Shown in pieces: positions 8,358-14,644 of a DNA stretch of 54,332 nucleotides. The DNA lies in contig JANXBN010000003.1 of assembly GCA_025060635.1 (NCBI GenBank), forward strand, positions 1 through 54,332, written 5' to 3'. The position numbers and the translations under genes are program-made. The notes beneath the pieces were generated by a model that was given only the letters and a program-made list of their open reading frames with translations, ran no database searches and had not been told where the DNA came from. Origin of the DNA: Candidatus Kryptonium sp. GTDB lineage: Bacteria; Bacteroidota; Ignavibacteria; Kryptoniales; Kryptoniaceae. Within the stretch, counting starts at the first letter, position 1, and the number at the start of each line of letters is the position of its first letter.

Positions 8358-8438
8358 AACAAAGTAGGTTTATAGTCCGTTATTATTTATGATGAAATTT
8401 AATTAAAAACAAAAACCTTGGTTGGAGGCAAAGAAACC

Positions 8439-9944
8439 ATGACGAAAAAGCAAGTAATCGGAGCAATTGCACTTGTACTTGCGGGAATGTTATTCGGAGT
8501 TATTCTTGTATCGGGATTTAACGCTGTCAAGCCGATTGTAGCTTTTGATACTCCTGTTATTGGAGCACAAGATAAGCCAACGAACACAAAATTTGATATA
8601 TTATCAACACAAAACGCTTTTGTTCAGGTAGCAAAGGAAGTTGTTCCAACTGTCGTTTCAATCAAAGTCGTTAGCAGAAGCGAAGGTCAAAGTCGTCCAT
8701 TTGATTTCTTCCATTTCTTTGGACCTGATTTTGAATTTAGAATGCCGGATCCGAGACCGCAAGAAGGTATGGGTTCAGGGGTAATAATAACAAAAGATGG
8801 ATATATTCTTACAAACAATCATGTCGTTGAAGGTGGAGAAAAAGGAAGTATAACGGTAACTCTTTGGGATGGCAGGGAATTTAAAGGCAAGCTAATAGGA
8901 AGGGATAAGTTAACGGATCTTGCTGTGATAAAAATTGAAGCGAAAGATCTACCTGTTGCAAGATTCGGAAATTCTGATGAGTTGCAAGTGGGGCAATGGG
9001 TCCTTGCGGTTGGAAATCCTCTTGGACTAAACCTTACGGTTACAGCTGGAATAGTAAGTGCGATGAGTAGAAATATAGGGATAATAAGGGATTCATACGG
9101 TGTTGAAAACTTTATACAAACTGATGCAGCAATTAATCCTGGCAATAGTGGTGGTCCGCTCGTTAATTTAAATGGTGAGGTCGTTGGGATAAATACCGCA
9201 ATTGCTTCAAGGACTGGTTATTATCAAGGATATGGTTTCGCCATTCCTATAAATCTTGCTCGTAAAGTTGCGGAAGATATAATAAAATACGGAAAGGTAA
9301 GACGAGGAGTTCTTGGAGTGCAAATTTCTCAACTTGATGAATCAACCGCGAAAGGATTTGGGCTTGATAAACCGCGTGGGATTTTGGTTCAAGATGTTAT
9401 ATCTGGTAGCGCAGCTGAAGAAGCAGGGATTAAAAACGGAGATATAATTCTTGAATGCGATGGTAAAGAAGTTAATAAGCCAGGTGAACTTCAAGAGATA
9501 ATTGCAAGAAAGCGACCTGGCGATAAGGTTAAATTAAAAATTTATCGTGATGGAAAGACATTTGAAGTCACCGCGACGTTGAAACCAAGAAAAGAGGATG
9601 AAGAGGTTGCGCAGGCAGAGGAAAGTAGACCACCAGCAAGGGAAATTGAGCCTGGAGTTGTTAACTTTGAAAAACTTGGTTTAACAGTTGCAAATCTTGA
9701 TGAGGAAGCAAAAAACAAGCATAAAGTCAAAAACGGCGTCATAATCACAAAAGTTGAACCTTTTTCCGAAGCTTTTGACAAGGGAATTAGAGAAAATGAC
9801 ATAATCATTGAAGCAGACAGAAAACCAGTTCGCAATGTTGATGAGTTGAAAAAAATAATACAAAGTCATAAATCAGGTGAAGTTGTGCTTTTAAGAATTA
9901 AAACTTCTGCTGGAAATAGGTTTGTTGGGTTAACGATACCTTAA
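8439..9944 (+). CDS. degP: HtrA/Deg-family periplasmic serine protease
   Basis: The 501-residue protein has an N-terminal membrane anchor or signal (about residues 8-27), a trypsin-like domain (about 55-270) and two PDZ domains (about 275-380 and 400-495). The catalytic triad is visible: His in TNNHVVEG, Asp in LTDLAVIKIE and Ser in NPGNSGGPL. HtrA proteins degrade or refold misfolded envelope proteins, which fits a lineage exporting many T9SS cargos. ATG 8439 is chosen over an in-frame TTG 21 bases upstream because GGAGG at 8424-8428 lies 10 bases before it. A strong terminator follows, so it is the last gene of its transcript. Confidence 0.95.
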   Translation: MTKKQVIGAIALVLAGMLFGVILVSGFNAVKPIVAFDTPVIGAQDKPTNTKFDILSTQNAFVQVAKEVVPTVVSIKVVSRSEGQSRPFDFFHFFGPDFEFRMPDPRPQEGMGSGVIITKDGYILTNNHVVEGGEKGSITVTLWDGREFKGKLIGRDKLTDLAVIKIEAKDLPVARFGNSDELQVGQWVLAVGNPLGLNLTVTAGIVSAMSRNIGIIRDSYGVENFIQTDAAINPGNSGGPLVNLNGEVVGINTAIASRTGYYQGYGFAIPINLARKVAEDIIKYGKVRRGVLGVQISQLDESTAKGFGLDKPRGILVQDVISGSAAEEAGIKNGDIILECDGKEVNKPGELQEIIARKRPGDKVKLKIYRDGKTFEVTATLKPRKEDEEVAQAEESRPPAREIEPGVVNFEKLGLTVANLDEEAKNKHKVKNGVIITKVEPFSEAFDKGIRENDIIIEADRKPVRNVDELKKIIQSHKSGEVVLLRIKTSAGNRFVGLTIP

Positions 9945-10054: not shown

Positions 10055-10813
10055 ATGAAAAAAGCTTTCGTCGTTATCTTTTTACTTTTGTTAACTAATT
10101 CTCTCTTATCTCAGGGTTCAGCAGGTGCAGGGGCTACTTTTCAGCAAAGATTCATAGTAGATATGCCAACCGCTGGACTTTTGAGGTCAAATAGCGTTTC
10201 GCTTGATGCCGATTTTTTTGCAGATGGAGGATTGATGCTTCGTCTTAATGCCTCTGCTTTTAACCGATTAAATTTCGGAATCTCGTATGGTGGTAGTAAA
10301 ATAATTGGAAATGGAAATGTAAATTGGTATAAACTTCCTGGTGTAAATCTAAAAATTAGAATAATTGATGAAACGAAAAATTTCCCAGCGATCGCGATTG
10401 GATTTGATTCGCAAGGAAGAGAGAAATATGTTGATAGTTTGAAAAGATATGAGTTCAAATCTCCAGGATTTTTCATCGTAGGTAGTAAATCGTTTATCTT
10501 TCTTGGTTATGCTTCAGTTCACGGCGGTATAAATTATTCTCTTGAAAAAGACGACGGTGATAAATCAGTAAATTATTACATTGGCTTTGACAAAACCATC
10601 GGAAACGATCTCACATTTTCAATGGAGTATAATTTTGCTATAAATGATAATTCTGCGAACGCTCTCGGGAGTGGTAAAGGTTATTTGAATGCTGGTATAA
10701 GGTGGTCGCTCGGTAGCGGATTTACAATTGAATTCAATTGGAAAGATATCTTGCGCAATAAAGAGCCTGGAAATTCAAGAGTTGTGAAACTTGAGTATAT
10801 TCAGTCGTTTTAA
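10055..10813 (+). CDS. Exported beta-barrel-like protein of unknown function
   Basis: The 252-residue product begins with a clear signal peptide (KKAFVVIFLLLLTNSLLSQ). The rest is rich in alternating hydrophobic and polar stretches with many Gly and aromatic residues (RLNFGISYGGSKIIG, FIFLGYASVHGG, LTFSMEYNFAINDN). It ends in VKLEYIQSF, whose terminal Phe is typical of outer-membrane barrel proteins. I read it as a small barrel of about 10-12 strands. No named family is recognised with certainty. It has its own predicted promoter, and a 74-base gap separates it from the lipoprotein operon, so it may or may not belong to it. Confidence 0.75.
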   Translation: MKKAFVVIFLLLLTNSLLSQGSAGAGATFQQRFIVDMPTAGLLRSNSVSLDADFFADGGLMLRLNASAFNRLNFGISYGGSKIIGNGNVNWYKLPGVNLKIRIIDETKNFPAIAIGFDSQGREKYVDSLKRYEFKSPGFFIVGSKSFIFLGYASVHGGINYSLEKDDGDKSVNYYIGFDKTIGNDLTFSMEYNFAINDNSANALGSGKGYLNAGIRWSLGSGFTIEFNWKDILRNKEPGNSRVVKLEYIQSF

Positions 10814-10887
10814 ACGAATTTTTTATCAAATTTAAGTTGTTAAATTTATTGAGGTAAAAATTTAAAGGCAGCGAGGAGGTGGCAAAA

Positions 10888-11862
10888 ATGAAAAAATTAA
10901 TTTTAATTTTGTTTGCTGGGTTTTTGTTTTGGGGGTGTTATACGCAGATCGGAACGGTGAGAGAAGATGAAGGTTATTCAACTGCTGAAACGAGAAAAGA
11001 AAGCCGCATTTATAACGAAAGCTATAACCACGGTAGTTGGTTTTATCACAAATATGTTTATCGCTATTACCTACCTTATCCAAGGTATTATCTATTTTTT
11101 AAATACTACACACCAGGGTTTGGCATCGGCTGGAGTGAGTGGTGGTACTATGATCCGTATTGGTTTGATTATTATTGTTGGGATTGGGACTGGTATTGGT
11201 GGAACAGATATTGTAGCTTTTATTGGTATCTGCCAGCGTGGTATTATTATCCATGGTGGTATAGGGCACCTATCATTGTGATAATTAACAATTATCCACC
11301 TTATTCTGACAGATCTGATAGATCGGTTGTTTATAGACCGAGAAATTTTGGTTCAACTCGTGAAGGGGCGCGTGATGAAAGGGTAAGAAGCGAGTCAGGT
11401 TCGCAAACTGTGTCTCCACCATCAAGAAGTATTCCAAGAAGTTCTAGTGAAGGTATAAGAACTTCGTCTGACGATGGAAGTATGAGAAAACCATCTGGAT
11501 CAGGTAGGGAAGTACCAAGAGTTGAAGAAAGAGGAGGTCGTGAAAGACCTCGTGAAATAGGCGCAACAAGAACTCCACAAAATCCAAGAGTTGTTCCAAG
11601 GTCAAATAGTAATGGTGATGAAAGCGTAGCACCGAGTCAGGATTCGGCGCCACCGCAAAGAACAAATCCACCGAGAAGATCTGGATCAACTAGAAATTTG
11701 ATTCAAATTGATAGAGACAATTCCGGAAGGAGCACTTTGATTGAGGTACCAAGACAAAGTAGAGTTAACAATCCATCTTCAGTTTTGCAAGGTGGTTTCG
11801 TTGGAAGTTCATCAGATGACCGAAGAGGAGAACAAAAAAGACAAATTGGAAATAGAAGATGA
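10888..11862 (+). CDS. Lipoprotein with an extreme Trp/Tyr-rich domain and a disordered Arg/Ser-rich tail
   Basis: The 324-residue product has a lipoprotein signal ending in FWGC (Cys 17). Residues 51-125 are extraordinary: by my count 43 of 75 residues are Trp, Tyr or Phe, 14 of them Trp (for example WDWDWYWWNRYCSFYWYLP), and two Cys lie inside the block. From about residue 140 on the sequence is low-complexity, rich in Arg, Ser, Pro and Gly, and ends KRQIGNRR. ATG 10888 is chosen because GAGGAGG (10873-10879) lies 8 bases before it. It is the first of four genes joined by ATGA overlaps or short gaps. No known domain is recognised; an envelope surface role is inferred only from the signal and neighbours. 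Confidence 0.85.
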   Translation: MKKLILILFAGFLFWGCYTQIGTVREDEGYSTAETRKESRIYNESYNHGSWFYHKYVYRYYLPYPRYYLFFKYYTPGFGIGWSEWWYYDPYWFDYYCWDWDWYWWNRYCSFYWYLPAWYYYPWWYRAPIIVIINNYPPYSDRSDRSVVYRPRNFGSTREGARDERVRSESGSQTVSPPSRSIPRSSSEGIRTSSDDGSMRKPSGSGREVPRVEERGGRERPREIGATRTPQNPRVVPRSNSNGDESVAPSQDSAPPQRTNPPRRSGSTRNLIQIDRDNSGRSTLIEVPRQSRVNNPSSVLQGGFVGSSSDDRRGEQKRQIGNRR

Positions 11863-12410
11863 GAAAATTATTTGGTTTCGGTTTATTGTTTTTAATTGGC
11901 TGCTATACAGTTTTAAAGCATCCTGAAATTAGTTACACTGATTCTGCTGGTGAAACCTACGTTTCTTATGTGTCATATAGAAGTGATTGTTTTAAATGCC
12001 ATTCAAATGCTGAAATAGCGTATTATAATTTAATTCCAGCGCATAGCTCTTCACCTTGGGCTTACTACAATACTCCGTGGTGGTTATGGTGGTCGGAGAA
12101 TTATAATGATACTGTCAAATCTCAAACCACAAATTCAATTAACGAAAATACAAGGGAATTTGGATCACGCAGATCTACATCAAGTAATAATAATTTCTTT
12201 ACACCGCCGCCACCTACGAGAACTCCAACAAGATCTGAAACAGGGATGAGTTCGGATAGCTCGTCATCAATCGGAAAAGAAAGAGATTCAAAAACAGGTG
12301 AAGGACGAGATTCATCTGGCATTCGTTCTGAAGAAAACTCAAGAAACCAAGGTAGAGAATCTGAACAAAACAAGGAAGGTAAAAGAAACATAGGTTCAAA
12401 AAGAAGATGA
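11859..12410 (+). CDS. Lipoprotein with one CxxCH motif and a charged disordered tail
   Basis: The 183-residue product has a lipoprotein signal ending in LIGC (Cys 15). Residues 44-48 read CFKCH, the sequence needed for covalent heme c attachment. A Trp-rich stretch (PWAYYNTPWWLWW) follows at about residues 66-78. The remainder is low-complexity and rich in Ser, Arg, Glu and Asn, ending KRNIGSKRR, much like the tail of the preceding lipoprotein. The ATG overlaps the upstream stop (ATGA), indicating coupled translation. Whether heme is bound is unknown: I see no clear distal Met/His ligand fold, and a lone CxxCH can occur by chance or bind metal. No family is recognised. Confidence 0.82.
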   Translation: MRKLFGFGLLFLIGCYTVLKHPEISYTDSAGETYVSYVSYRSDCFKCHSNAEIAYYNLIPAHSSSPWAYYNTPWWLWWSENYNDTVKSQTTNSINENTREFGSRRSTSSNNNFFTPPPPTRTPTRSETGMSSDSSSSIGKERDSKTGEGRDSSGIRSEENSRNQGRESEQNKEGKRNIGSKRR

Positions 12411-13807
12411 GGAAAGGAGTTTTGCTTTTAATTCTTTTAGTTGATTTTATGTTAGCGCAATTTCCTGAGGATGCTTTGAGGTATTCAATTTTAAATTCAG
12501 GTGTCGGGGCGAGAGCAATCGGGCTTGGATTTGCATATATCGGTGTTTCTGATGATTATTCTGCGTTTTTTTGGAATCCCGCAGGGCTTGCACAAATAAG
12601 AAGATTTGAATTTGCAGGCGGTTTAAATTATTTATCGCTTACTAATTCAGCAAAGGTTTTTAACTATTCCAATTCTTTCAAAAATACAGCAACAAATTTG
12701 AACACTGTTGCTCTTGTTTTACCTGTCCCAACAATTCGTGGAAGTTTAGTTTTCGCTGGTGGTTATGCGCGTGTTTCTGATTTCACTGGGACTTTGTCAA
12801 TCTCACTTTTTAACACTCAAAGCTCCATAGTTCCATCGCTTTATGATCCTGACCCTAATTATGATCTTGCGTGGAAGCTTGGGCTTGAAGATTCAACAGG
12901 CGCAACGCAGATCTTGAACAATGTCCATCAAAAGATTACTTTATACGAGAGCGGTGGGTTAAATCACTGGTTTGCTTCCGGCGCAATTGATATAGCAGAA
13001 AATTTATCTGTGGGACTTACTATTTCAATCGTCACTGGTAATTACAAATACGACAGAAAGTTTGATGAAACTGATACGCGAAACTTTTACAGAAATTATC
13101 CTTGGGATTTTAATCAACTGACGGTATCGGACATAGTTGATGCTACTGTAAATGGCTTTTCGGCAATTGCAGGTTTAATGTATAGAAGTAACTTTTTCAG
13201 AGTTGGATTGATCGCGAGATTACCATCATCTCTAAATGTCAGAGAAGATTATTCAAGGAGCGGAAAAAGTTCTTTTGACAAGGGCGATTCTTATTCCTAT
13301 TCCTATTCTGGCATTTCAAAGTATAAAGTTCTTTCACCTTTTTATTTCGGAGGAGGGTTATCGTTCAATGTAAAAGATATAGTTATCGTTGCAGGTGATA
13401 TCGTTTATGTTGATTGGCGACAAATGGAGTTTAAAAATAATCCTGATTTAGTTCAACTCAACAGAGATATAAAAGAAACATTTAGAGAGACAGTAAGTTT
13501 AAGTGGTGGGGTTGAGGTTTTGATGCCGTTCCTGCAACAGGTGAAGATAAGAGCAGGGTATAGCTATAGACCTTCACAATATGTAGAGGACGCTGGGATT
13601 TCAAGCAGAGCAACGAGATTGTTAACTCTTGGTTTTAGCGTTCTTTTACAAAAAACACTTTTAATAGATTTCGCATACACTGCAGGTAAATGGAGCACAA
13701 TTCGGACGCAATATAGTTATACACTTGGTAATAACTATTACAGTTTAATCACGGATGAAGAAAACACAGCAAGAAATTTTGTCGTGACATTTCGCTATAG
13801 ATTTTGA
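12407..13807 (+). CDS. PorV/FadL-like outer-membrane beta-barrel protein
   Basis: The 466-residue protein has a signal peptide (KGVLLLILLVDFMLAQ). It then carries the PorV/OmpP1 family signature GVGARAIGLGFAYIGVSDDYSAFFWNPAGLAQI, followed by long barrel-like repeats and the terminal FVVTFRYRF with C-terminal Phe. In T9SS bacteria, PorV-type barrels act as shuttle or docking proteins for cargo; FadL relatives are transport channels. The sequence alone does not decide between these. It overlaps the preceding lipoprotein by ATGA and is followed within 25 bases by another lipoprotein. The set may form an outer-membrane complex, but that is inference. Confidence 0.82.
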   Translation: MRKGVLLLILLVDFMLAQFPEDALRYSILNSGVGARAIGLGFAYIGVSDDYSAFFWNPAGLAQIRRFEFAGGLNYLSLTNSAKVFNYSNSFKNTATNLNTVALVLPVPTIRGSLVFAGGYARVSDFTGTLSISLFNTQSSIVPSLYDPDPNYDLAWKLGLEDSTGATQILNNVHQKITLYESGGLNHWFASGAIDIAENLSVGLTISIVTGNYKYDRKFDETDTRNFYRNYPWDFNQLTVSDIVDATVNGFSAIAGLMYRSNFFRVGLIARLPSSLNVREDYSRSGKSSFDKGDSYSYSYSGISKYKVLSPFYFGGGLSFNVKDIVIVAGDIVYVDWRQMEFKNNPDLVQLNRDIKETFRETVSLSGGVEVLMPFLQQVKIRAGYSYRPSQYVEDAGISSRATRLLTLGFSVLLQKTLLIDFAYTAGKWSTIRTQYSYTLGNNYYSLITDEENTARNFVVTFRYRF

Positions 13808-13828
13808 AAAATAAATTTGCGATTTTGG

Positions 13829-14644
13829 ATGGGAAAATTTCAACTACTTTTTCTATCGGTTTTAATCATTGTTTTTCTTGGCTGTGGTAGTTCAAGGCAA
13901 ACTTTAAATGAAGATGCAAAATCCTCAACCGTTAAGCTATCAAACGCTGATGCAAATTTCCCATTTGGTAAAAAGTATAAGTATGTTTACAAGCTCGTTA
14001 AACCTGTGGAAAGAGAACAACTTTTCTTCTCTGATCCAAACATATCAGCTCAATTTGTGATTGATGAATTATTTATTCACTTGAGATTGAAAAACAAGAA
14101 AGGTGAAAAAATAGTGGTTTCGCTTGATGATGCTCAAATTTTCGTTGATGCTCGGAGTTCAAAGGTTGTTAATTTTAATTACATAAACGATTTTTCTTAT
14201 TCTCCCGTTAATTTTTCTACCGATCTTGATGTTTTTCCGAATTCTTTTGTTGAGCTCCATCTTTCCCCTGCGGATCGGGTATTTATGAACTCTGGTGATT
14301 ACGAGGTTATGGGTTTTTATCCCTATGTTGATTTCAATGATAAGGAAAAAATTAAAGAAATTTATGCCAACATCGGAAAGAAAGTGGGGCTTTATCTTCC
14401 CATTGAAACTGAAACTGAGATCTATGATTATTATTTTGAATTTCAAATTGTTGATGTAAAAGAAGATGGGCCATATTATCCCAAAAGAAGACAAACTGTT
14501 GCACAAACGCAATTGCCCTCTGAAATTGTAGTAAGAGGTGAAGCATTGAGTCCTTCTGAAAGTTTTATAGCTTCAACTTTAATTTCTTTCTTCGTTTTGA
14601 TCTCTGCTTATTTCATATTTGCGAGGGAAAAGGGAAAGATCTGA
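13829..14644 (+). CDS. Lipoprotein with a C-terminal membrane segment, unknown function
   Basis: The 271-residue product has a lipoprotein signal ending in FLGCG. The central region is soluble and mixed alpha/beta without recognised motifs. A hydrophobic segment near the C-terminus (FIASTLISFFVLISAYFIF) ends in KGKI. A lipid anchor at one end and a transmembrane helix at the other is unusual and suggests the protein may be held in the inner membrane at both ends. TTG 13817 is an alternative start in the same frame; ATG 13829 is preferred because it leaves a normal signal length, but neither has a good ribosome site. It is the last gene of the envelope cluster, and the next gene starts 2 bases after its stop. 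Confidence 0.72.
   Translation: MGKFQLLFLSVLIIVFLGCGSSRQTLNEDAKSSTVKLSNADANFPFGKKYKYVYKLVKPVEREQLFFSDPNISAQFVIDELFIHLRLKNKKGEKIVVSLDDAQIFVDARSSKVVNFNYINDFSYSPVNFSTDLDVFPNSFVELHLSPADRVFMNSGDYEVMGFYPYVDFNDKEKIKEIYANIGKKVGLYLPIETETEIYDYYFEFQIVDVKEDGPYYPKRRQTVAQTQLPSEIVVRGEALSPSESFIASTLISFFVLISAYFIFAREKGKI

Follow-up and report, generated by a model that had tools for sequence, protein, structure and literature searches.

A disordered lipoprotein and a FadL-fold barrel in Kryptonium

The window analyzed here is a stretch of 54,332 nucleotides from Candidatus Kryptonium sp. (GenBank assembly GCA_025060635.1, contig JANXBN010000003.1), on contig 3 of a 2.5 Mb assembly that is 97% complete. At 10055–14644 it carries five co-directional genes, A, B, C, D, and E, all on the + strand, to which all coordinates below refer. 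Our subject is the pair formed by B, which encodes a lipoprotein of unusual composition, and D, which encodes a barrel of the FadL fold. The two genes recur together across the Bacteroidota, and it is very likely that they constitute a single functional module.

B (10888–11862; ATG at 10888, stop at 11860–11862) encodes 324 residues. After a signal peptide with the lipobox FWGCY and the lipidated Cys17 (10888–10938) come three segments, the first acidic, the second aromatic (the block), and the last rich in Arg and Ser (the tail), whose median charges in the family are −6, −1, and +22. A sequence-only reading of this DNA, which preceded our analysis, had described a 75-residue stretch as 57% aromatic with 14 Trp, and our recount agrees (43 aromatics, 14 of them Trp); among the 38 non-overlapping open reading frames (ORFs) of at least 150 residues in the window, the next-highest count is 20 per 75 residues. 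The block as we delimit it, residues 45–130 (11020–11277), contains the motif [YFW]DP[FYW]. Beyond it lies RNFGSTR (residues 152–158, 11341–11361), an instance of an RxxGxTR motif that is strong in the class, and then the tail (residues 166–324, 11383–11859), which, as the same reading had it, is Arg/Ser-rich and predicted to be disordered. Arg makes up 92% of the basic residues of the tail across the family (R/(R+K) 0.92), and an Arg stands within the last five residues in 72 of 75 members.

The segments of B evolve differently. Within the genus, the block shows 82% identity and a ratio of nonsynonymous to synonymous change (pN/pS) of 0.12, close to the values of D (0.17) and A (0.15), whereas the tail shows 52% identity and a pN/pS of 0.55; these ratios are rough, as synonymous sites are near saturation. 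The tail keeps its composition and its C-terminal Arg while its sequence changes fast. Constraint on the block is comparable to that on the barrel, and B is not free to drift. Across the phylum, the block retains its composition and the short motif: [YFW]DP[FYW] occurs in 50 of 75 members versus 5.6 in shuffled blocks, and a relaxed form occurs in 70 of 75 versus 24 in shuffles. Purifying selection on the block, together with the phylum-wide synteny described below, rules out the idea that B is a drifting low-complexity ORF.

None of 35 members of the B family matched a Pfam or NCBIfam model (both libraries, E ≤ 0.01), and a protein search found no paralogue of B in its own genome. One additional DNA match, which might have been taken for a paralogue, merely has a similar start region 5′ of an unrelated gene. 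Structure prediction, which the sequence-only reading had proposed for the block, returned no confident fold. With 37 homologues, AlphaFold2 gave B a mean predicted local distance difference test score (pLDDT) of 49, and only the signal helix was structured. On this score we reject a folded aromatic domain, although so low a confidence would be compatible with folding upon binding to D. On these predictions, B appears to be intrinsically disordered.

D (12407–13807), in contrast, is predicted by AlphaFold2 with a pLDDT of 90.8, as a 466-residue, 14-stranded barrel. Its named relatives are in Kryptonium thompsonii, Chrysopegis kryptomonas, and a Thermokryptus metagenome-assembled genome. The mature N terminus, QFPEDALR (residues 18–25, 12458–12481), is conserved, and the NPA motif of the FadL-type hatch (residues 57–59, 12575–12583) is invariant in the class. 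The spacing from the initial Gln to NPA is 7 residues longer than in Escherichia coli FadL, whose reference position, N33, was taken from mutant names in the PDB list, and it is fixed in most members of the D family. A longer conserved N terminus is also what distinguishes the non-transporting BamG from FadL transporters (PMC12578637).

The sequence-only reading had called D a PorV/FadL-like barrel. The FadL part of this assignment stands because D matches Pfam PF03349 (Toluene_X/FadL) at 6.7e-14 and 51.6 bits, above the gathering score of 29.7. The PorV part does not, as the match to PorV/PorQ (NF033709) covers the N-terminal region only and reaches 46.1 bits against a cut-off of 90. The best profile matches are TbuX, TodX, and FadL, from 2e-18 downwards, and the predicted structure is closest to CymD (Z 35.8) and TbuX (35.1), followed by FadL (~34), BamG (~33), and PorV (27); the top Foldseek match is BamG. 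Nevertheless, D is not BamG: it scores 65.8 bits (54–66) against the NF053685 cut-off of 250, and a separate gene (G000:C1:748535–749683) passes that model with 259.6 bits. By itself, the fold cannot separate a role in envelope biogenesis from one in hydrophobic uptake.

Some homologues of D are interrupted. Three in one family (f21) contain a single in-frame stop each (TAA in G069:C61:9069–10607 and G073:C23:70817–72346, TGA in G061:C2:52417–53946), and D may be a split or decaying gene in this family. Another (G216:C7:204773–206074) was read as two adjoining segments, which may reflect either a split gene or a break in the alignment.

B and D are paired across the Bacteroidota

We followed the locus through three rings of relatives: congeners, class, and phylum. 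The congeners retain the order A-B-C-D-E in the regions read, and in the class a lipoprotein with the mature start CYT lies upstream of D in 40 of 40 regions examined. For the phylum, 40 further loci were drawn from a search with the D profile; nearly all have a B-like ORF directly upstream, usually within 150 nt. The pairing persists where the lipobox of B reads SCGSY or GCATT, and also where it is lost.

To count the association, we fixed a definition of a B-type ORF: at least 24 aromatics in 75 residues, followed by a tail with a net charge of at least 7 and at least 55% R/S/P/G/N/T/Q. Such an ORF lies directly upstream at 87 of 98 D loci, which share descent and so do not represent 87 independent events. 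As background, we used 615 other non-overlapping ORFs and eight BamG loci, and no B-type ORF was found among either. Of the 11 loci without a B-type ORF, seven have ~1.5 kb or less of upstream sequence, one is at a contig edge, one has a split ORF (L088), one falls below threshold (L157), and one is a real absence. The last (L144, in G074) is a clear D without an upstream B, where a small, helical, charged ORF takes the place of B. Loss of the block or of the gene order in relatives had been named in advance as the outcome that would speak for drift; instead, both are conserved across the phylum.

In a survey of 247 Bacteroidota genomes with the D profile (E ≤ 1e-40), D was found in 159, about two thirds, mostly as one strong match per genome. 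The contexts read contain no catabolic neighbors of D, and no regulator recurs next to the pair from family to family. In one large family, the pair adjoins a divergent proS-like gene (L146 and L143), with a rimO-like gene after it in L146; the order proS-B-D-rimO suggests, as far as sequence can, that this family is the Flavobacteriaceae.

SprA, the channel of the type IX secretion system (T9SS), is encoded in 157 of the 159 D-positive genomes. D lies 8–57 kb from sprA in several families, including 11 genomes of five families in which the distance is ~8–20 kb, and far from it in most other complete genomes. Because of these distant cases, we treat membership of D in the T9SS only as a lead. 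What is observed, then, is the pairing itself, with B and D adjacent and in the same orientation across the phylum, from which we infer a complex, its topology, and its function, at the different strengths given below.

Accessory genes of the cluster

Gene A (10055–10813), which the sequence-only reading overlooked, encodes a 252-residue secreted β-barrel with a weak resemblance to YjbH and OmpA. It scores 19.7 bits against YjbH (PF06082), below the gathering score of 24, and 13 of 20 family members match that model at E ≤ 0.01 (best 6e-7). We found A in 56 genomes, of which 52 also have D; in 39 of these 52, the two genes are within 6 kb of each other. A is a cluster member in many relatives, and few genes of the cluster are better conserved in the class (53% mean column identity, 20 genomes). 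Just upstream of A, at 8418–9944, is a gene for a periplasmic serine protease that is DegP/HtrA-like by its motifs and is kept in several congeners.

The sequence-only reading had taken B, C, D, and E as one operon, with ATGA overlaps coupling B and C to D, and had noted that no known family explains them together. The overlaps are present between B and C (11859–11862) and between C and D (12407–12410), and neither B nor C matches any Pfam or NCBIfam family above cut-off. As a unit, however, only the B–D core extends through the phylum: C is a lineage-limited insert, and E is a genus-level addition.

C (11859–12410) encodes a second lipoprotein, of 183 residues, with the lipobox IGCY; a minority of lineages have this insert between B and D (14 of 247 genomes, beside D in 13). 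It has the features ascribed to it earlier, namely CxxCH (residues 44–48, 11988–12002; DCFKCH at 43–48), a Trp patch (PWWLWW), and a charged Ser/Arg tail. Among 11 aligned homologues, CxxCH, PWW, and the Pro after the lipobox are invariant, and an HP upstream of CxxCH is found in 10. After the Trp patch, FGSRR resembles RNFGSTR of B, and the two proteins have a common layout: a CYT mature start, a Trp/Tyr patch, an FGS.R-type motif, and a Ser/Arg tail. A heme role for C is possible. All 10 C-positive genomes tested have cytochrome c assembly genes (PF01578), and ResB was found in none of them. C showed no clear cytochrome or PDB relative, its matches to heme models were at chance level (Haem_bd 0.099, Cytochrome_C7 0.13), and no viral relatives were found.

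E (13817–14644, from TTG at 13817 or ATG at 13829) was correctly read as a third lipoprotein, with the lipobox LGC within LGCGSSRQ and a C-terminal hydrophobic segment. It follows D in the congeners read, and outside the genus other genes occupy its position; no family matched it above cut-off.

What the pair may do

We propose, with a probability of about one half, that B and D form a two-component outer-membrane module, consisting of a FadL-fold barrel and a dedicated disordered lipoprotein. D would serve as a membrane scaffold or channel, and B would be lipid-anchored beside it; a direct complex between the two is probable. The aromatic block with its [YFW]DP[FYW] motif could be the contact surface for D, or for hydrophobic or unfolded material that D handles. 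The Arg tail, whose composition is fixed but whose sequence is free to vary, could bind anionic partners such as lipid A phosphates or peptidoglycan or, alternatively, could bind the aromatic block of B itself by cation–π contacts. Either kind of binding would hold B where it is anchored, and B would serve as a flexible tether or a holdase. The module as a whole would then play an accessory part in the biogenesis or quality control of the envelope rather than take up a particular nutrient, by analogy with BamG, which carries BamH, and PorV, which carries T9SS cargo. In Kryptonia and a few other lineages, a second such lipoprotein, the possibly heme-binding C, would have been gained, and E would have been gained in the genus.

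The side of the membrane on which B resides bears on several of these points. According to the rule published for Bacteroidota (PMC12578637), a lipoprotein bound for the surface carries at least two acidic residues in the six positions that follow its lipidated Cys. All 74 lipidated B proteins lack this signal, and for this reason we lean slightly toward the periplasmic face.

Several known systems resemble the pair in part. BamG–BamH (PMC12611786, PMC12578637) is likewise a Bacteroidota-wide combination of a FadL-fold barrel, with a conserved N-terminal extension ahead of the hatch, and a partner lipoprotein; it differs in that D falls below the BamG cut-off and that BamH is a folded surface lipoprotein with an export signal, whereas B is predicted to be disordered. 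PorV shares with D the FadL fold, similarity over the N-terminal 70 residues, and SprA-positive genomes, but its Z is 27 versus 33–36 for FadL and BamG, and D has a fixed lipoprotein neighbor. Among the papers found, the one that comes nearest describes Fjoh_4940, a lipoprotein of Flavobacterium johnsoniae, and the adjacent FadL homologue Fjoh_4941, which rise 2.6-fold and 5.6-fold upon depletion of TamL and for which the authors suggest a possible functional link (PMC12045153). The passages of that paper available to us describe neither the composition of the lipoprotein nor a phylum-wide pairing. A literature search on low-complexity and tyrosine-rich lipoproteins otherwise returned papers on the barrel-assembly machinery (BAM) or nothing relevant.

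Our preference for envelope biogenesis over uptake derives from the phylum-wide, context-independent distribution of the pair, the BamG-like N-terminal extension of D, and the rise of the candidate Fjoh pair under outer-membrane stress. It is tentative, somewhat short of an even chance, and several observations weigh against it. First, the invariant NPA hatch fits a transporter equally well. Second, the closest fold and profile matches of D are hydrocarbon and fatty-acid channels, which also suits a transporter. Third, phylogeny confounds the correlation with SprA, since one family (f26) accounts for most listed genomes in which both genes are missing. Fourth, the export-signal rule was derived from other classes, and Kryptonia may not follow it. 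Finally, the identity of Fjoh_4940/4941 with B and D is an unconfirmed lead.

Uptake is the strongest of the alternatives, though we consider it unlikely. D would be a channel of the FadL/TodX type, and the block of B would act as a tethered sponge for fatty acids, hydrocarbons, or quinone-like molecules. D shares with the FadL, TodX, TbuX, and CymD channels the fold, the hatch, and the C-terminal half of the barrel, and its first profile matches and highest Z scores fall among them; the Z scores of transporters and BamG differ, however, by ~3 at most. Moreover, these channels differ from D in its 7-residue extension, which recalls non-transporting BamG, and in its constant disordered partner. 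Its phylum-wide occurrence, mostly as one strong match per genome, and its surroundings, in which no catabolic context was seen, also weigh against this reading.

A second alternative, adhesion or matrix formation at the cell surface, was already raised by the sequence-only reading and has lost ground. Here, B would be exposed and self-associating or sticky through aromatic–Arg contacts, with D as its anchor or exporter. The sticker-and-spacer-like composition with its Arg-rich tail, the fast evolution of that tail, and the layout common to B and C would all suit such a role. It nevertheless seems rather improbable, as the export signal is lacking throughout the lipidated members, three members lack the lipobox Cys, and a block constrained like a barrel is unusual for an adhesin.

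Another, improbable idea is that B forms a membrane-bound extracytoplasmic condensate, a phylum-conserved Tyr/Trp–Arg layer at the outer membrane nucleated by D. FUS-type Tyr/Arg low-complexity proteins likewise combine a block rich in aromatics with a disordered, Arg-rich region after it. The likeness to B is one of composition only, as B is exported and membrane-anchored and has no nucleic acid partner. If the idea were true, a low-complexity condensed layer would be conserved across a bacterial phylum.

B might instead act in the manner of RcsF, as an envelope tether or a sensor of stress. Its basic disordered tail would pass through D, plug it, or reach across to peptidoglycan, and would report damage. 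A lipoprotein with a long basic disordered chain adjoining a barrel is what such a device would require, and the rise of the Fjoh pair under outer-membrane stress (PMC12045153) would fit if that pair corresponds to B and D. But the conserved hatch should close the lumen of a FadL fold, and no regulator accompanies the pair across families; this possibility appears improbable. Least probable is electron transfer, with C as a c-type heme lipoprotein and B as a matrix around it: the conserved CxxCH and HP and the cytochrome c assembly genes keep the earlier suggestion alive for C, but most B–D genomes have no C, its cytochrome matches are at chance level, ResB was not found, and B has no cofactor motif.

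Whichever role applies, B and D are an uncharacterized pair present in about two thirds of the sampled genomes, which points to an outer-membrane component that has gone unrecognized. Its disordered partner would escape sequence searches that use low-complexity filters. The BAM and T9SS machines of Bacteroidota have only just been solved, and both use FadL-fold barrels as scaffolds; the module proposed here, in which such a barrel may carry a dedicated disordered lipoprotein, would stand beside them.

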